DNA from: Deferrisomatales bacterium
Lineage (GTDB): Bacteria; Desulfobacterota; Deferrisomatia; Deferrisomatales; JARGFW01
NCBI GenBank assembly: GCA_029211085.1
Contig: JARGFW010000031.1
Location: forward strand, 1-34,377
DNA length: 34,377 nucleotides
Direction of reading: 5' to 3'
Part shown: piece by piece, positions 8,893 through 17,529 of the stretch
Layout: each line of letters begins with the position of its first letter
How positions within the stretch are numbered: the stretch's first letter is position 1
The notes under the pieces: generated by a model
The model's database searches: none
What the model saw: only the letters and a program-made list of their open reading frames with translations
What the model was told of the DNA's origin: nothing
Position numbers and translations under genes: made by a program

Positions 8893-8921
8893 ATTATTCG
8901 AGAATAGCGGTGTTCAGTCAA
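8893..8921 (-). promoter_or_regulatory. Strong sigma70-type promoter for xseB-ispA-dxs operon
   Basis: The minus strand has TTGACT (8916-8921), a 17-nt spacer and AATAAT (8893-8898), each 5/6 to consensus, in the only AT-rich patch of the neighbourhood. The -35 box overlaps the stop codon of the upstream M23 gene. Predicted transcription starts near 8886, about 46 nt before the xseB GTG. It would make xseB to the U32 gene a separately driven unit inside the longer minus-strand block. Confidence 0.7.
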
Positions 8922-9799
8922 GGGGTTTCCCCACCCCCGGCGGCCCCAAACGCGTGCAACAGACTCAGGGGATCGGCCTTTCGCCCGGAGAGATACACCC
9001 CCCAGTGCAGGTGAGGACCGGTAGAGCGGCCGGTGGAGCCCACCTGACCCAGTTCGCCGCCGGCCGCCACCTGCTGTTCCTCGCGCACGGCCACCGTGTC
9101 CAGGTGAAAGTACGCGGTGTACAGTCCCAGGCCGTGGTCCACGAACACGGTGTGGCCGGTGTAGAAGTAGTCTCCCACCAGCGCAACCGTGCCGGCCCCT
9201 GCGGCGTGCACCGGGGCACCCCGGGGGGCGGCGATGTCCAGCCCGGAGTGGTAGCTCTTGGGGGTGCCGTTGTACACCCTGCGCACCCCGAAGGCACTGG
9301 TGACCGGACCGCTCAACGGCATCGCAAACGGCGTCTGCCACAGCCGCTCAGCGGTGCGGCGGCCGAGCACCTTGCGGATGACGCGGTTTTCCCTGGCGGC
9401 GCGTTCCTGGTCCTCGGGTGACAGGTGGACCATTCCCTCCTGTACCCGCAGGTGCTGCTCCGGGTACTCCCGTGGCGCCACCGTCATCGTGAGCGCGGCC
9501 AAGGGTTGACGGTCCTGCTGCCGGAGCACGCTCAGTAGCAGTGACGCCTGCCCCGGGGCCTGCTCTCGATCGACTGCGGCGAGCCCTTCCCAGGTGGTGT
9601 CGGAAAGCTGCCACAGGGCGAACTCCCGGTCCCCGAACGTGGCCCGCACCGCGTCTCCGCCTTCGACACCGTGCACCGTCACCCGGAACACCTCCCCAGG
9701 CGCCGGCTGCGCAGGGGCCAACTCCACCTGCGGGAGGGACCCCGCCCCGGCGGCACCGCACAGCCCGAGCCAGCAGATCAACGATACTGTGAACCTCAA
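8918..9799 (-). CDS. M23-family (LytM-type) metallopeptidase, secreted
   Basis: The 293-residue protein has an N-terminal signal sequence (about 1-20), a beta-rich N-terminal region (about 22-110) and a C-terminal M23 peptidase domain. Zinc ligands are intact: His 184 and Asp 188 (HSGLD) and His 265 (HLHWG), with catalytic His 232 (YFHLD). It should therefore be an active peptidoglycan endopeptidase in the periplasm, not a degenerate LytM activator. The apparent start is TTG at 9797-9799, overlapping the glnD stop as TTGA, with AAGGGGAACAGGG just upstream. The pairing with an upstream amidase suggests a cell-wall remodelling set. Confidence 0.9.
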   Translation of the reverse strand: MRFTVSLICWLGLCGAAGAGSLPQVELAPAQPAPGEVFRVTVHGVEGGDAVRATFGDREFALWQLSDTTWEGLAAVDREQAPGQASLLLSVLRQQDRQPLAALTMTVAPREYPEQHLRVQEGMVHLSPEDQERAARENRVIRKVLGRRTAERLWQTPFAMPLSGPVTSAFGVRRVYNGTPKSYHSGLDIAAPRGAPVHAAGAGTVALVGDYFYTGHTVFVDHGLGLYTAYFHLDTVAVREEQQVAAGGELGQVGSTGRSTGPHLHWGVYLSGRKADPLSLLHAFGAAGGGETP

Positions 9800-12468
9800 C
9801 CCTGTTCCCCTTCCCGAGTAGCCCCGGCGATCACCGCTTCGAGTCTGTGCTGCAACTCGATGAGTCGGCCGGCATCGGTGAGTTTCCCGCCTTCTACGGT
9901 CTCCACGTAGAAGGCGTCGGACACCCGCCGGAGCATGGTAATGATCTTGGCCAAGCGAATGGTCAACCCCTGGTCCGTCAGGGCACGGGCCACATCGTAC
10001 AACAAACCCAGGCGGTCTGGCCCGGAGAGATCCACCACCGTGAACCGCGCCGAAGCGTTATTATCCACCGTAACCCGGGTCGGCACCGGGGGCAACGCCT
10101 GCTCCAGGGGCGAGACGACCCGCAGGCAGCGGTGTTTCAGAGGGGGCAGCGCACCGGAGCCGGACAACAGATGGACGAGTTCCTCACGCCATTGGTCCCA
10201 GCGGGGACCGCTTGCCAGAGGCTCGCCACGGGGCACGGTGACGTGGAACACGTCGACGGCCCAACCGTCGGTGCGCGTGTTGAGCACAGCCGAGAGAACG
10301 TTGACCTGGTGGGTCGCCAGCAACCCTGCCACGGTGGCGAACAACCCGGGTCGGTCGCGGGTGAGGAGCAGTAACTCGGTGTGGCCTTCGGCAGGTACCG
10401 CGCGCAGTTCCACCACCGGAACATCGCCCCGCCCCAGAAACGCGGCCAAGTGGCGCAGCAGCACCTCCACCGGCTGGGCAAGCAGGTAACGGGGGTCGTC
10501 GATGTGTGCCAGAAACCCCTCCACCTCGGCTTCCGGAGCCAGATCCCCTGCCGCAGCACGCAAGCGGTGGCCAACGGCCGCCACCCGTTCCGCCGTGATG
10601 TCGCGCCGGGGTGGTCCATGCTCGAGCACCGCCAGGGATTTCTCATACAGCTCGCGGAACAGCAGGTGCTTCCAGCGGGTCCAGGAAGTGGGCCCCACCG
10701 CCCGCGCGTCGGCGAAGGTGAGCAGGTGCAGCATGCGCAGGAGTTGGGGATCGCCGACGTGGCCGGCGAACTCGGCCACCAACTGTTCGTCGTGCAGATC
10801 GCGGCTCTGGGCGGTCAGGGCCAGGCTCAGGTGCTCGCGCACCAGAAACTCCAGATGCGCCCGCTCCCGGGGGAGCAGGTCCATGCGGTCGGCCACCTGG
10901 ATGGCCAACTCCGCACCGCGTTCCTCATGGCGGCTCCCGTGCCCCTTGCCCACGTCGTGCAGCAGCGCAGCCAGGTACACCAGATGGGGCCGCTCCACCT
11001 CCTCCATCGCCCGGGTGTACTGGGGAAACTCCTCCCGGTACTCGCCCCGGGCCAGGCGCCGCAGTTCCTGCACGGCGAACAGGCTGTGCACGTCCACGGG
11101 ATAGGCGTGGTAGGGGTCGCGCTGCACCCGATGGTAGATGGGCTCCAGTTCCGGGATGAAACGGTCCAGAAACCGCACGTCGTGCATGCAAAAAAGGGTG
11201 GAGGCGACGCGCCGGGGATACTGCAGCACCCGCAGGAACAACGCCACGGCGTCGGGGTCCCGGCGGTATCGATCGTCGATACAGTCCAGATGGTCGCGAA
11301 TGACTTGCGTTGCCTGGGCGGAGAGGTCCGCGTCGTGGACCTGCGCCGCCTCGAACGCGGCCAGCATCCGCAGGGGGTCCTCCGTGGTCGCCAGGGGGTC
11401 GAGGGTAATCTCTCCCCCCTGCAGGAGCACCCCGTGGCTCACCTCCTGCGGGGGCTCGCCACCGCTCGCACCACCGCGGTTGCCGCGAACCGAAAGGGCC
11501 TTACGCAGCAGGCGCTCCACCGCGTGGACCACCTGGTTGGCGCAGGCGTAATAGCCCTGGAGCAAGGCCTCGGCACCGGGCCCCTGGGGCGTGTCGGGGT
11601 GGCCGAAGTACTCCGCCACCTCGGCCTGCAGTTCGAAGCTCAGTCGGTCCTCCCTGCGTCCGCACAGGAAGTGGAGTTGGTTGCGCAACCGCAGGAGGAA
11701 CTCACGGCTCTCCTCCAAGGCGCGGATCTCGGCGGCTGGCACCAGCCCGTTCTGCAGCAACTCGTCCACGGTGCGCGCCCCGAAACGGCGCCGAACCGCC
11801 AACAGGGCGGTCTGGATGTCCCGCAGGCCGCCCTGCCCTTCCACCACCTGGGGCTCGAGCAGGTACACGGTGCCGCCGTATCGGGCGTGGCGCTCCTCCA
11901 TCTCCGCCAACAAACCAGCGGCGCTCTCCGTGCCGGAGGTGCCCGGCAAGGCCGCCCGATCCGCCGGGTCGCGCCGTTCGGTCAGTGTCGGGTCACCGCA
12001 AAGGAACCGCCCCTCCCCCAGACTTGCGGCGTCGATGGGGGAATCACCGTCCGCGACCCGGTGCGGTCCGAGAGCAAGCAAGACCCCCTGCACGTCCAGG
12101 TGGGCGTCGCGGAGGGGATGGAGCAGCCCCTCCCAGAGCGGCATAGGGTCGAACCCTTCGCGGTGCACCAGCAGCATCTCGAGGACGGAGTGCGGTGCCA
12201 GCGCGCGGTGGCCAAACTCTCCCAAGGCGAACAGGGCACTGCCGTGGGCCTCGTCCCTGCGCTCCTCCTGCAGCGACCGGAACAACGCGCAAACCAGGGT
12301 GTCGCAGCGATCCGTCCAGGTGGCCACCACGGCGTGGCCGGAGCCGCCGCCGTCGTGCAGTGTCCGGAGCTCGGACCGGCTGCACCTGAGATACTCCCGG
12401 ATCTCCTGCACCCTGGACCCCCGGGTCTGCAGGCGGGTCTGGAGGACCCCCGTTCGTTGACAGCTCAC
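9796..12468 (-). CDS. glnD: GlnD-type PII uridylyltransferase/uridylyl-removing protein with eroded transferase site
   Basis: The product is 890 residues, the same as E. coli GlnD as I recall it, starting at GTG 12466-12468 that overlaps the amidase TGA (GTGA). GlnD reads glutamine and adds or removes UMP on PII. Seen: linker motif GQGGLRDIQ (211-219), an intact HD domain (LLHDVGKG, His 504/Asp 505) for UMP removal, and two C-terminal ACT domains for glutamine sensing. The N-terminal nucleotidyltransferase signature, normally GGYGRGEL..SDID, reads GEFGHRAL..SVLE (83-97): the first catalytic Asp is Val 95 and the second is Glu 97. Later transferase motifs are also poorly kept. UMP transfer is probably lost; UMP removal or sensing may persist. 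Confidence 0.9.
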   Translation of the reverse strand: MSCQRTGVLQTRLQTRGSRVQEIREYLRCSRSELRTLHDGGGSGHAVVATWTDRCDTLVCALFRSLQEERRDEAHGSALFALGEFGHRALAPHSVLEMLLVHREGFDPMPLWEGLLHPLRDAHLDVQGVLLALGPHRVADGDSPIDAASLGEGRFLCGDPTLTERRDPADRAALPGTSGTESAAGLLAEMEERHARYGGTVYLLEPQVVEGQGGLRDIQTALLAVRRRFGARTVDELLQNGLVPAAEIRALEESREFLLRLRNQLHFLCGRREDRLSFELQAEVAEYFGHPDTPQGPGAEALLQGYYACANQVVHAVERLLRKALSVRGNRGGASGGEPPQEVSHGVLLQGGEITLDPLATTEDPLRMLAAFEAAQVHDADLSAQATQVIRDHLDCIDDRYRRDPDAVALFLRVLQYPRRVASTLFCMHDVRFLDRFIPELEPIYHRVQRDPYHAYPVDVHSLFAVQELRRLARGEYREEFPQYTRAMEEVERPHLVYLAALLHDVGKGHGSRHEERGAELAIQVADRMDLLPRERAHLEFLVREHLSLALTAQSRDLHDEQLVAEFAGHVGDPQLLRMLHLLTFADARAVGPTSWTRWKHLLFRELYEKSLAVLEHGPPRRDITAERVAAVGHRLRAAAGDLAPEAEVEGFLAHIDDPRYLLAQPVEVLLRHLAAFLGRGDVPVVELRAVPAEGHTELLLLTRDRPGLFATVAGLLATHQVNVLSAVLNTRTDGWAVDVFHVTVPRGEPLASGPRWDQWREELVHLLSGSGALPPLKHRCLRVVSPLEQALPPVPTRVTVDNNASARFTVVDLSGPDRLGLLYDVARALTDQGLTIRLAKIITMLRRVSDAFYVETVEGGKLTDAGRLIELQHRLEAVIAGATREGEQG

Positions 12469-14045
12469 CCGCCATCCAGGAAGTGTTCCACGCCCGCGGC
12501 CATCGCTGTGGCGGCCTGGCGGTGGAAGCGGGCACTGGCCAGGCGCTTGGCCTCCACGGGGTGGGTGATGAACGAGGCCTCGATGAGGATCGCCGGCATC
12601 ATGGCTCCGGTGAGTACGTAGAACGGCCCCCGCTTGACGCCCAGGTCGCGCACCGGACCGTAGGCGCGGGACACATCCCCCACCAGCGCCCGTTGCACTG
12701 CCTCGGCCAGGCGTCGTGAATCTTGGATCTTCGAGGCGAGGATCACGTCCGCCAGGATATGTTCCATCTCGGCCAGGTCCGACTCGGTGCCGGCGTTCTC
12801 CCGGGCAGCCATCTTGCGGGCGGCCCGGTCGGAGGTGCGATCCAGATAGTAGGTCTCGATGCCCTTGGCCCGGGAGGAGCGGGCGGCGTTGGCGTGCACC
12901 GAGATGAACAAATCGGCGCCGAAACCATTGGCGATCGCCGTGCGCTGTTCCAGGGGCAGGAAACGATCGTCGCTGCGGGTGAGTTTGACCGTGCAGGGCA
13001 GACGCCGGGGTAGCTCCTCGGCCAACTCCTGGGCCATGGCCAGCGCCACGTTCTTTTCCAGCAGCCCCCCGGGCCCCACGGCGCCCGGATCTTTGCCTCC
13101 GTGGCCGGGATCCACCACGATGCGCAGGGGGCGCGCCGGCGCGTCCGGGGGTTGGGGCACGGGTGGCGCCGGGCTGCGGGAGATCAGGTCTGCCACCACG
13201 TCTTGAGACTCTACGTCGCGGACCACGTCGACCACGATGCGGGGCGGTGAGTCCAGGGGGAAGGCACGGAAGTTCGAGGCCCCGGTGAGGTCCAGCACCA
13301 CCCGCACAGTGGTCGGGTCGTACTGGCCCATCCGCACCTGCCGCACCAGCCCATCGGCTACCTGAGCGCAGGACGGGCACTCTGGCCCCACTCGGGTGCG
13401 CGCCAGGTCAAGGAAGATGCGCGGCGGCTTGCCGGCTCCCGGGTTTGCGGGCAGGGTCTTGGCTTGAAACGGCGTCAGGTGATCCAGGTCGAGCACCACC
13501 CGGGTGTAGCTCTCCGTAGACCAGGTGCGCACTCCCCCCACCCGGGTGCTGCGGGTCAGCTCGACCAGGCGCTTGCGAGCCACCGCCGCCATGTCCCGCT
13601 GGGGGTACTCGGCGACCACCCGCCGGTAGAGTTGACGCGACGGCTCGGTCTGACCCTGCAGTTCCCGCACCCGTCCCGCCCGCAGCAGCGCGTCGTCCGC
13701 CAGGTTCGAGTCGGGGTAGTCTGCGGTGAGTTGCAGGAACGCGGCCACGGCGGCTTCCCGATCGCTCTCGTCACCGGAAGCGGCGAACGCCTTCTCCTGG
13801 CACATCCCCAGCGTATACAAGGCGTCGGCGGCGCGGGGGGAGCGGGGGGCGGCGCGGGGTACCGCTTCAAACTGCTGGGCCGCGCGCCGCCACGCCCCGG
13901 CGTCCGCTGCACCGGGCCCGGCTGCGGAGAGTTCGTAATAGGCGGCGCGGGCGATCTCGTAGAGTTCCGTACCGCGCTCCGCCCGGGCAGAGCCGTGGAT
14001 GGCCACGGCCAGCAGCAGGCAGACGGCGCCCAGGGGCTTCCTCAT
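12465..14045 (-). CDS. N-acetylmuramoyl-L-alanine amidase (TPR-AMIN-Amidase_3), periplasmic
   Basis: The 526-residue protein has a signal peptide (1-22), a helical TPR-like segment (about 25-165), an AMIN-type beta domain (about 172-275), a Pro-rich linker (291-306) and a C-terminal Amidase_3 domain. The zinc site is complete: His 315 (DPGHGG), Glu 330 (LLEKN) and His 384 (SVHAN), with catalytic Glu 489 (ILIEASF). Such amidases cleave the stem peptide from muramic acid during septum splitting, and AMIN domains target them to the division site. The N-terminal TPR addition is unlike E. coli AmiC and is something I associate with deltaproteobacterial relatives. The ATG overlaps the lptD stop as ATGA. 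Confidence 0.92.
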   Translation of the reverse strand: MRKPLGAVCLLLAVAIHGSARAERGTELYEIARAAYYELSAAGPGAADAGAWRRAAQQFEAVPRAAPRSPRAADALYTLGMCQEKAFAASGDESDREAAVAAFLQLTADYPDSNLADDALLRAGRVRELQGQTEPSRQLYRRVVAEYPQRDMAAVARKRLVELTRSTRVGGVRTWSTESYTRVVLDLDHLTPFQAKTLPANPGAGKPPRIFLDLARTRVGPECPSCAQVADGLVRQVRMGQYDPTTVRVVLDLTGASNFRAFPLDSPPRIVVDVVRDVESQDVVADLISRSPAPPVPQPPDAPARPLRIVVDPGHGGKDPGAVGPGGLLEKNVALAMAQELAEELPRRLPCTVKLTRSDDRFLPLEQRTAIANGFGADLFISVHANAARSSRAKGIETYYLDRTSDRAARKMAARENAGTESDLAEMEHILADVILASKIQDSRRLAEAVQRALVGDVSRAYGPVRDLGVKRGPFYVLTGAMMPAILIEASFITHPVEAKRLASARFHRQAATAMAAGVEHFLDGG

Positions 14046-16051
14046 GGCAGAAGGCCCTTCAACGCCCCCAGGCGGCCCAGGCCGGCGATCTCCAGTTGGG
14101 CGTAGTAGCGGTGGTCATAACGGTTCTCGTCCGCCTGCCAGTTGCGCGAGTAGGTCACCTGCACCGCCCAGCAGGGATGGTGTAACTGCGCACCATAGCT
14201 CTCCTCCAGAATCTGAGTTTCCCGGGCGCTGTAGCGGTTGCGGTACTGCAGGGTGAGCACCCGCCGCACGGCGATCTCCAGCCCCGCGTCCAGATACCCG
14301 GCTTCCTGTTTGAGATAACGGTAGCCGGCGAACAGGCGGTCGCCGCGGCGGTCTCGCAGGTCCCCCTGGGCCGACCAGCTCAGCCAGGGGTCTGCAACGC
14401 CGGGGTCGTACTCCCCGGCGGCCCCTAGGGAGACAGCGTCGCTCGGAAACCAGTCCAGCTCTCCCCGCAAGGGGAGCCAACGGGACGCCCCCAGTTCGTA
14501 GCGCGCGTCCAGATCCAGGGCAGCCAGGGTGCGCAGGCCGGTATCGGTCAGCAGGCGGTTCTCCAGCTGCAAGGAAGCCGTGGTGGTGTGCGCGAACTCG
14601 TCCTGGTGGTCGAACCCGGGCGGTGCCCCGCCCCGCCCTTCCTCCTCCCACTGCAGGCTCAGCCGAGGCTCTAAGGTGTGTAGCACCGCGCCGAACGGAC
14701 GGGCCAACGTGAGCTCTGCGTCCAGTTGCGCGTCGGCCCCACCCCGTGCGGTCCACTCGTCGTCCACCCGATAGATATTCTGCCGATAGCCGCTCCTCGC
14801 CGCCAGCCCGAGTGCGCCAAGGGAGCCCGAAGCCCCCAGGCCGGGAACTACCTCCAGGCGCTCCCCCCGGAGCCCCTGCCCTCTCCAGAACCGGGTTCCG
14901 CGCACGGTGGGGGACCAGACCAGGGGCCCGACCAGGGGCGTCTCGCGGCCCAACAGGCCAAACTGCGGCAGGGTCTGCAGTACCTCCCCCTGGGGGTCGG
15001 TAAGGGACTGGAAGTACTCGGCCAGGCCGAACAGAGAACCGGCGCCCACATCGTGGGTGCCCACGGCGAAGCTGCGGGTGCGCTGCACCCCACGGTCGTC
15101 GAGGGTATCTCCCAGGTCGCGCTGGTAATCGGTATCCCCCGCATAGTTCACCTGAACCCGCGCCCGGGAAGCGTCGTCAAAACGACTGACGTGGTCGGCT
15201 TCCACCGTGTAGCGATGGGCATCCCTGAGCCGGTCCCAGAGATGGGTACCGGCGATGCGCCCCGCATGCCCCTCGGCCAGCACGTAACGCACTTCCCCCC
15301 GCTCCTCCCAGCCGCGCTGGCTGCGGTACCTTCCCTCCAGGGTGGCGTCAGCGTTGTCGGAGATGACCCAGTAGTAGCGCAGTGCGCCGTACAGGCCGTC
15401 GGTGCTCGTGTAACCGAACTTGGGGAACAGAAATCCGGACTGGCGCTCCCGTTTCACCGGGAACAGGAGGTAGGGGGTGTAGAGCAGCGGTACCCCCTCC
15501 ACCCAGAACGCGGCTCCCCGCCCCACCAGGTAACCCTCCAGTTCCACTTCCAACTCGCGGGCCTGCACCCGCCAACTGGGCCAGGTGCCGTCGCAGGCGG
15601 TGAACCCTCCGTCCTGGACGGTATAGGAGTTGGCCCCGGTCTTGCGCAGGTGCTTCCCCCACACCCGGTAGCCCTCTCGCGCGATCCACAGGGATCCGTC
15701 CGTCACCTCCCCCTGTTCGGTGACGGTGTTGATCTCCAGGCGGCTGCACTCCAGCACGTTGCCGTCCCCGTCCTCGAGCACCACCTGGCCCTCCGCCCGG
15801 GCCACCCCGTCCCCTGGGCGAAACGTCACCCGCTCGGCGAGCAGGCGGAACTCCCGCCAGCGCAGCACCACGTGCCCCTCGGCGCGCACTTCTTCGCTGC
15901 CCTGCAGGGCCGACAGGGAGTCGGCCTGCAACGCCACGGCGTCTCCGCCGGTTTCGCGCCGCAGCGACCAGAACTCCTGGGCGCTGGCTGGTCCCGCCAC
16001 GAGCGTGATGAGGGAGATCAACAATATCGATCTAAGCAAACGCAATTCCAT
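14042..16051 (-). CDS. lptD: LPS-assembly protein LptD (short form)
   Basis: The 669-residue protein has a signal peptide (1-24), an N-terminal OstA/LptA-like beta-jellyroll (about 38-135: ADSLSALQGSEEVRAEGHVVLRW) and a long C-terminal beta-barrel rich in aromatic alternating strands. LptD with LptE inserts lipopolysaccharide into the outer membrane. The conserved PLLYTPYLLFP segment is present at about residues 188-198. Cysteines are at 102, 153 and 627; E. coli has two pairs, so the disulfide scheme here would be reduced. It is shorter than E. coli LptD (784), matching short LptD forms outside the gammaproteobacteria. It begins 24 nt after folC. Confidence 0.9.
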   Translation of the reverse strand: MELRLLRSILLISLITLVAGPASAQEFWSLRRETGGDAVALQADSLSALQGSEEVRAEGHVVLRWREFRLLAERVTFRPGDGVARAEGQVVLEDGDGNVLECSRLEINTVTEQGEVTDGSLWIAREGYRVWGKHLRKTGANSYTVQDGGFTACDGTWPSWRVQARELEVELEGYLVGRGAAFWVEGVPLLYTPYLLFPVKRERQSGFLFPKFGYTSTDGLYGALRYYWVISDNADATLEGRYRSQRGWEERGEVRYVLAEGHAGRIAGTHLWDRLRDAHRYTVEADHVSRFDDASRARVQVNYAGDTDYQRDLGDTLDDRGVQRTRSFAVGTHDVGAGSLFGLAEYFQSLTDPQGEVLQTLPQFGLLGRETPLVGPLVWSPTVRGTRFWRGQGLRGERLEVVPGLGASGSLGALGLAARSGYRQNIYRVDDEWTARGGADAQLDAELTLARPFGAVLHTLEPRLSLQWEEEGRGGAPPGFDHQDEFAHTTTASLQLENRLLTDTGLRTLAALDLDARYELGASRWLPLRGELDWFPSDAVSLGAAGEYDPGVADPWLSWSAQGDLRDRRGDRLFAGYRYLKQEAGYLDAGLEIAVRRVLTLQYRNRYSARETQILEESYGAQLHHPCWAVQVTYSRNWQADENRYDHRYYAQLEIAGLGRLGALKGLLP

Positions 16052-16075
16052 GTCTTGTTGTGAAATCAGATACGG

Positions 16076-17362
16076 CTACGGCACGCGTCCCAGGCGGCGC
16101 AGATGGCCGCGTGCCTCGCCCACGGTGGTGAGGGAACCGGTCACGCACACCAGATCGTCCGGGCCCGCTTCGGATAGAGCCAGGTCCAGGGCAGCACCCA
16201 CGTTGGGGGCCGTGATGGCGTCCGTCCCCGCGTATTGGCGGGCGGCGGCCGCTAGATCTGCGGGCGCCAGGGCCCGCCGGGAGGCAGAAGCTGTGAGCAC
16301 CAAACGGTTCGCCAGGGGAGCGAGGTCCGCGAGGATGGAGCGGGCGTCCTTGTCGCCGAGGATGCCCAGCACCAGCCACAGGCGGCGGTAGCGGAACTCG
16401 TCGCGCAGGGCTGTCGCCAGAACCCGAGAGGCGTGCGGGTTATGCGCGCCGTCGAGCAGCACCGTGGGGTGGCTGCCGCACTCCTCCAGGCGTCCTGGCC
16501 AGGTTGCGGTGGCGACGCCCTGGCGTATCCCCGCCTCCGGCAGGTTCCAGCCGCGGGCGGCGAGCACCTCCAGGGCGGCCAGGGCCACGGCCAGGTTGTC
16601 GGCCTGGTGGGCGCCGCGCAGGCGGTACGCCACGTGGTCCCAACGAACGTGCAAACCGTGGTAGTCCAACGCCCCCGGCCCGGCCGGTTCGCTCCGGAAC
16701 TCGCGGCCGAGTCTGTACACCGGCGAGCCGCGGCCGGCGGCCAGGCGTTCCAGGTTGCTCAGGGCCTCCCCCTGGGCGGCGGTGACCAGGGGTATCCCCG
16801 GCTTGACGATACCACCCTTCTCCGCGGCAATTTCCGCGATGGTCGCGCCCAGGTGCTCGCAGTGCTCCAACCCCACGTTGGTGATCACCGTCACATCGGG
16901 TTCCACCACATTGGTGCTGTCCAAACGGCCCCCCAGGCCCACTTCCACCACCGCCAGGTCCACACGGACCCGCGCGAAATGCAGTAGGGCCATGGCGGTG
17001 ATGATCTCGAACTGGGTCATGCCCGGGGGGGCGGCGTCCCGCACCGCCCGGTACAGGTCGGGCACCGCGGCGTCGGGCAGGAGTTCCCCATCGACCCGGA
17101 TGCGCTCACCGAAGAACTCCAGGGGGGGCGAGGTGAACAACCCGGTGCGCAGGCCGCAGGCCGTCAGGGCCGCGGAGAGCAGCATGGCTGTGGAGCCCTT
17201 GCCGTTGGTGCCGCCCACGTGCACACACGGCACCTGCCGGTGGGGGTGGCCCAGAGCGGCCAGGCAAACCTCCACGCGTTCCAGGCCCAGGTCGATGCCG
17301 AACTTCTCCAGGGCATCGATCTCGGCCAGGGCTTGGACGGGGCTCAACGGTGGGCTTGGCAT
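16076..17362 (-). CDS. folC: Folylpolyglutamate synthase / dihydrofolate synthase
   Basis: The 428-residue product is a Mur-ligase-family FolC. It shows HVGGTNGKGST (the P-loop), VVEVGLGGRLDSTN, ITNVGLEHCEHLG and LLDGAHNPHA, all diagnostic. FolC adds L-glutamate to dihydropteroate and extends the gamma-glutamyl tail of tetrahydrofolates, using ATP. The ATG at 17362 is chosen because homology begins at SPVQALAEIDALEKFGI; an open frame reaches further upstream but runs through the fusA promoter. No clear Shine-Dalgarno sequence is seen. It is the first gene of the minus-strand block and diverges from fusA. Confidence 0.93.
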   Translation of the reverse strand: MPSPPLSPVQALAEIDALEKFGIDLGLERVEVCLAALGHPHRQVPCVHVGGTNGKGSTAMLLSAALTACGLRTGLFTSPPLEFFGERIRVDGELLPDAAVPDLYRAVRDAAPPGMTQFEIITAMALLHFARVRVDLAVVEVGLGGRLDSTNVVEPDVTVITNVGLEHCEHLGATIAEIAAEKGGIVKPGIPLVTAAQGEALSNLERLAAGRGSPVYRLGREFRSEPAGPGALDYHGLHVRWDHVAYRLRGAHQADNLAVALAALEVLAARGWNLPEAGIRQGVATATWPGRLEECGSHPTVLLDGAHNPHASRVLATALRDEFRYRRLWLVLGILGDKDARSILADLAPLANRLVLTASASRRALAPADLAAAARQYAGTDAITAPNVGAALDLALSEAGPDDLVCVTGSLTTVGEARGHLRRLGRVP

Positions 17363-17415
17363 GGAGGCGGGGTCCGACCCGCAGAACATCGCAAGAGCAG
17401 AGATGGTGATTGGAT

Positions 17416-17444
17416 TTGACTCACTCCTCGGCCCCGAGTATAAA
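17416..17444 (+). promoter_or_regulatory. Strong sigma70-type promoter for fusA
   Basis: TTGACT (17416-17421), a 17-nt spacer and TATAAA (17439-17444) form a near-consensus promoter about 86 nt before the fusA ATG. The -10 region AGTATAAAG also reads TATACT on the minus strand (17437-17442), so it could fire towards folC, though the minus-strand -35 is poor. Confidence 0.75.
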
Positions 17445-17529
17445 GATCGACTTACCTTTTTCGGGAAAAGCTGATCTCGGTCCGCACGACCGCGCACCAC
17501 CTCGATCCTTTTACAAGCAGAGGAATACC

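Follow-up and report, generated by a model that had tools for sequence, protein, structure and literature searches.

GlnD is the textbook bifunctional enzyme, uniting UMP addition, UMP removal and glutamine sensing in one protein. A 34,377-nucleotide stretch from a Deferrisomatales bacterium (contig JARGFW010000031.1; hereafter the window, meaning the whole stretch analysed) encodes a GlnD, GlnD1, with a broken UMP-adding site, which raises the question of what such a protein might do. In proteobacterial GlnD, uridylyltransferase (UTase) activity resides in the N-terminal nucleotidyltransferase (NT) domain and uridylyl-removing (UR) activity in the HD domain; the two sites are distinct, and UTase is favoured when glutamine is low, UR stimulated when it is high (PMC4285133; PMC3480911). 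The gene and its domains are located as follows.

9796 to 12468, minus strand: glnD1, 890 amino acids, GTG start, four-base overlap with the stop of the amidase gene; TIGR01693 and Pfam matches
11914 to 12378, minus strand: NT domain (residues 31-185), apparently catalytically degenerate, on a fast-evolving branch
12178 to 12222, minus strand: broken NT motif GEFGHRALAPHSVLE (residues 83-97), with V95 and E97 replacing two invariant Asp
12094 to 12096, minus strand: D125, probable third NT acid, kept; D or E in 75/90 intact homologues; heads the next core strand (126-133 in the model)
11509 to 11910, minus strand: GlnD_UR_UTase helical domain (PF08335), GQGGLRDIQ retained, K209V and W223L lost
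10639 to 11118, minus strand: HD domain with the uridylyl-removing site (residues 451-610), H454/H461/H504-D505/D587 intact
10144 to 10383, minus strand: ACT1 (residues 696-775), Pfam ACT
9829 to 10056, minus strand: ACT2 (residues 805-880), PF24931/ACT

GlnD1 resembles the bifunctional enzymes of E. coli and Rhodospirillum rubrum in its domain order (NT-GlnD_UR_UTase-HD-ACT-ACT), its length and its HD and ACT signature residues. Pfam recognises GlnD_UR_UTase, HD and ACT, and the two C-terminal ACT domains are also seen as strands and helices in the predicted structure. Against TIGR01693 ([protein-PII] uridylyltransferase) the protein scores 576 bits over residues 31-880, above the cut-off of 519, and an automatic pipeline would accordingly label it a uridylyltransferase. 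It differs from these enzymes in carrying V/E for the Asp pair and in having lost half of its near-invariant NT residues, and UTase activity would not be expected of it.

The earlier note had placed V95 and E97 at the catalytic Asp positions and E84 at that of a conserved Gly, and the alignment with same-phylum homologues bears this out. The motif GG[YFL]GR..E....SD.D is absent from GlnD1, which reads G83-E-F-G-H-R-A-L-A-P-H-S-V95-L-E97 (V95 codon GTC at 12186-12184, E97 codon GAG), while both Asp residues are invariant in the intact copies (90/90). The downstream transferase motifs are weak, as had also been proposed: the usual residues are missing at positions 84, 87, 89, 120, 143, 209 and 223, including E, H, R, V and L in place of G84 (85/90 intact homologues), R87 (88/90), W120 (87/90), K209 (89/90) and W223 (88/90), respectively. 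Altogether 8/16 near-invariant NT residues are lost, as compared with 0/25 in the HD domain, 0/6 in ACT1 and 0/8 in ACT2 (8/16 versus 0/39, Fisher p ~1e-5). The linker motif GGLRD (213-217), the PF08335 domain and the HD set H, H, HD, D (HHHDD) are all present, and the note's view that linker, HD site and both ACT domains are kept is correct. D97E is the milder change and D95V the clear loss; since D125 is also kept, it is D95V, combined with the remaining losses, that carries the case for NT loss. The transferase site is, judging from these residues, almost certainly non-functional, although one metal could still be held by E97 and D125. The hydrophobic core of the NT domain retains 30 of 42 positions (the 5% quantile of intact homologues is 0.89), consistent with a core that is eroding and a domain in decay. 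The substitutions are dispersed, and across the NT domain neither the reading frame nor the codon-position GC pattern is interrupted, which makes a frameshift or sequencing error an unlikely cause of the loss.

An AlphaFold prediction for GlnD1 (mean pLDDT 84, pTM 0.83) retains the NT strands at 96-103 and 126-133; confidence is low for residues 135-149 and 171-177. Built from an alignment of 11 sequences from the window and a homologue scan, mostly intact copies, the model neither proves nor excludes metal binding. Foldseek matched it to tRNA nucleotidyltransferases of the poly(A)/CCA kind, both archaeal-type and bacterial, and to E. coli GlnE (1v4a, TM 0.59), and a sequence search of the PDB found no GlnD structure.

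The gene neighbourhood of glnD1 and its orthologues indicate in which lineage the NT site was lost. The neighbours are:

12465 to 14045, minus strand: N-acetylmuramoyl-L-alanine amidase (Amidase_3, AMIN), upstream of glnD1, conserved neighbour
8918 to 9799, minus strand: M23 peptidase, downstream of glnD1, conserved neighbour
14042 to 17500, minus strand: lptD and folC, part of the conserved block

The block folC-lptD-amidase-glnD1-M23 is shared with the orthologues of the same order (G003, G004, G006, G007, G009 and G010; the G006 contig stops before the M23 gene), all of which read GGYGR.ELSP.SDLDL and form one clade with GlnD1 (SH-aLRT 100). This shared block and common clade with intact orthologues imply that glnD1 is vertically inherited and that the NT loss is specific to the window's lineage. 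NT core identity between GlnD1 and these orthologues is 28-33%, compared with 52-56% between families among the orthologues themselves, while for HD the nearest orthologues show ordinary identity (63-66% versus 66-67%). With the tree fixed, the branch of the window protein is 1.76 changes per site long for NT, 0.45 for HD and 0.58 for ACT, so that the NT domain has evolved at approximately four times the rate of the HD domain. The proposal that the protein is kept under selection stands for the HD and ACT domains; in the NT domain constraint looks relaxed (fast branch, core 30/42). The idea that GlnD1 acquired a foreign NT domain by recombination was discarded, since the NT sequences closest to its own are those of the order's GlnD1 proteins. 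A protein-only scan of named genomes found no relative, and an alignment scan returned the same-order record PKTU01000114.1 and otherwise distant sequences, with no congeneric copy. As separate observations, the G006 orthologue (L042 2-2467, minus strand) has an in-frame TAG, real or an error, that splits its NT and HD parts, and four genomes of the order (G001, G002, G005 and G011; 91-100% complete) have no GlnD match at all.

A search of the window's genome with PF08335, of the kind the earlier note had suggested, identified a second GlnD, GlnD2, at 2008-4464 of contig C4. Its NT site is intact (GGYGRGEMAPHSDVDLLF; 0/16 near-invariant residues lost) and its ACT domains are eroded, 6/6 ACT1 and 5/8 ACT2 near-invariant residues being lost, a combination also found in the GlnD2 clade among the order members examined. 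The HD domain keeps H/H/HD/D, with E at R556 (R in 87/90) and differences at several other HD positions, and GlnD2 may itself be bifunctional. The gene lies in an operon as follows.

512 to 4870 of contig C4 (locus L076): amtB-glnD2-PII; glnD2 starts four bases inside the end of amtB (TIGR00836) and the PII gene is next

This PII carries Tyr51 in RGAEY, as does a second PII on contig C315 that is divergent from another ammonium transporter gene, amt. There is also a third, divergent PII-like protein without the Tyr51 motif (C305, L078 6233-6574, minus strand). GlnD2 copies form their own clade, in which the copy from the window's genome has the G004 copy as its sister; G004 is likewise the source of the nearest full-length GlnD1. 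The window's genome is one draft bin, 96.9% complete and 8.5% contaminated, and the tetranucleotide correlation with the window is 0.85 for C4 and 0.92-0.93 for C315 and C341; C4 thus likely, although not provably, belongs to this genome, a contaminant being possible given these two values. One candidate origin of GlnD2 is actinobacterial; with respect to actinobacterial GlnDs, its clade is separate in a mixture-model tree and adjacent, with a support of only 87, in a larger and simpler tree.

Because the NT site of GlnD2 is intact, uridylylation of PII remains possible and it is the division of labour that changes. A role for GlnD1 in UMP removal and/or glutamine sensing, as suggested in the earlier note, is the natural reading of its conserved residues, but the accompanying idea that PII control would differ from the usual cycle is not supported in that form, since GlnD2 is present. 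A dead NT domain beside perfect HD and ACT domains makes GlnD1 best read as a glutamine-stimulated UMP-remover. We infer that GlnD1 is devoid of UTase activity, that its HD site works and that GlnD2 modifies the same PII. On this account GlnD1 would be the vertically inherited housekeeping GlnD, whose NT site was lost most likely because GlnD2 supplies the UMP-adding activity, leaving a hydrolase that senses glutamine and acts on PII-UMP in one direction. When glutamine is high it would bind the intact ACT domains of GlnD1, and the HD site would strip UMP from Tyr51 of PII; at low glutamine GlnD2, with its perfect NT site and eroded ACT domains, would add UMP. The cycle run by one enzyme in E. 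coli would then be split over two polypeptides, an account that we regard, taken as a whole, as probable.

To place this arrangement in the phylum we drew a sample of 395 genomes, of which 30 were examined closely; 28 of these had at least two GlnD matches, second copies being sought only where the search gave two matches. Thirteen genomes from three families (f40, f73 and f92) contain a second full-length GlnD in which the NT motif is gone (for example GAFGRGLVGPSQPIPVLLL and GNLGRGVLGPQDPVSLLWL) and HHHDD is intact. The members are:

family f73: L130, L133, L138, L140, L141
family f92: L121, L137, L142, L143
family f40: L120, L123, L144, L146

These 13 proteins group in a single clade (SH-aLRT 100) that also takes in one contig-end fragment and does not include the window's GlnD1, and on sequence grounds the NT loss is a separate event in the window's lineage and in this clade. 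They resemble GlnD1 in having lost the NT motif and kept the HD domain, and in always occurring beside an intact GlnD. Besides their separate origin and spread over three families, they differ from it in that the Asp pair, the third acid in most members and GGLRD are lost or altered, in that ACT1 is partly diverged (ACT2 is mostly kept), and in a better preserved NT core, 33-37 of 42 positions in the six checked as against 30/42 in GlnD1. Between 8 and 10 of the 16 NT residues are lost, and 2-5 of the 25 other near-invariant HD residues differ around a conserved catalytic set. The better-kept core is as expected if the NT domain persists as a stable pseudo-domain. Of 60 single-GlnD records, 59 have an intact copy and the remaining one is truncated by a contig end, so that within this set no dead NT domain was seen without an intact partner. 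The tested neighbours of the dead clade (SOD, rubrerythrin, UDP-glucose dehydrogenase, hisA-like, transglycosylase) include no nitrogen genes. A further genome, G036, encodes a 543-residue GlnD with HD and ACT domains and no NT domain (L149 4527-6155, plus strand) inside a 149-kb contig, also with an intact GlnD; copies that seem to lack the NT domain in G142, G351, G288 and part of G389 were disregarded, since the contigs end there and only the G036 copy lies within its contig. The same survey showed two divergent intact glnD genes ~1-3.5 kb apart in three genomes (L102 and L134 in G330, L103 and L135 in G189, L105 and L131 in G348), and GlnDs with GGYGE instead of GGYGR and both NT Asp retained in family f31 (L127, L128). 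Taken together, it is conceivable, at somewhat less than even chances, that GlnD duplication has repeatedly been followed by a division of the PII cycle between two antagonistic proteins, a UMP-adding GlnD and a dedicated, glutamine-sensing, NT-dead UMP-remover, with one clade's dead NT domain persisting across families as a pseudo-domain that is structural or binds PII.

Other readings of GlnD1 have to be weighed against the split cycle. The best of them, which we nevertheless consider unlikely, is that GlnD1 neither adds nor removes UMP and serves purely to sense glutamine or to regulate, for instance by tuning GlnD2 or by binding PII non-catalytically; the intact ACT domains would suit this, and binding of PII by a dead enzyme is plausible, but the HD domain, with all catalytic residues and 25/25 near-invariant positions kept, is the most strongly conserved part of the protein, which would be needless in a non-catalytic one. 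A little less likely still is early decay of the whole gene, without a role and redundant with GlnD2. GlnD1 does outpace its sister orthologue in every domain (focal/sister 1.3-3.2), yet no near-invariant HD or ACT residue has been lost, frame and codon-position GC are intact, and the parallel clade indicates that such proteins persist across families. We find it improbable that GlnD1 still weakly uridylylates PII with a metal held by E97 and D125: both residues are acidic, GGLRD is kept, and the modelled NT core strands match the GlnE NT fold, but the invariant D95 is gone along with G84, R87, E89, W120, K209 and W223, several independent catalytic features, and the hydrophobic core is eroding. 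An artefact of assembly or base calling, or a join of NT and HD parts from different organisms, might be suspected in a contaminated draft bin but is very improbable given dispersed in-frame substitutions, an NT part still closest to the order's GlnD1 NT and an intact syntenic block.

The split-cycle reading can be set beside other known systems. GlnD1 is not a glutamine synthetase adenylyltransferase (GlnE), as it lacks a match to the GlnE domain PF03710, which has no match anywhere in the window's genome. Plant ACR proteins are not known to contain domains other than ACT repeats, whereas GlnD1 keeps its HD domain. The ACT sensor modules of the plant proteins are related to those of GlnD, without catalysis (PMC3173338). 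Actinobacterial GlnD is encoded in amtB-glnK-glnD operons (PMC4285133), and GlnD2 is likewise found with amtB and a PII gene, although in a different order, amtB-glnD2-PII. We found no report of UTase-dead GlnD paralogues in the open-access literature searched.

'Uridylyltransferase' annotations of genomes based on TIGR01693 may include copies unable to uridylylate. If they are what they appear to be, the NT-dead GlnDs would be natural UR-only proteins for asking which ACT domain controls which activity. A repeated division between adder and remover, if true, would mean that the two activities can be set at independent levels and under independent glutamine control, with no built-in switch between them.
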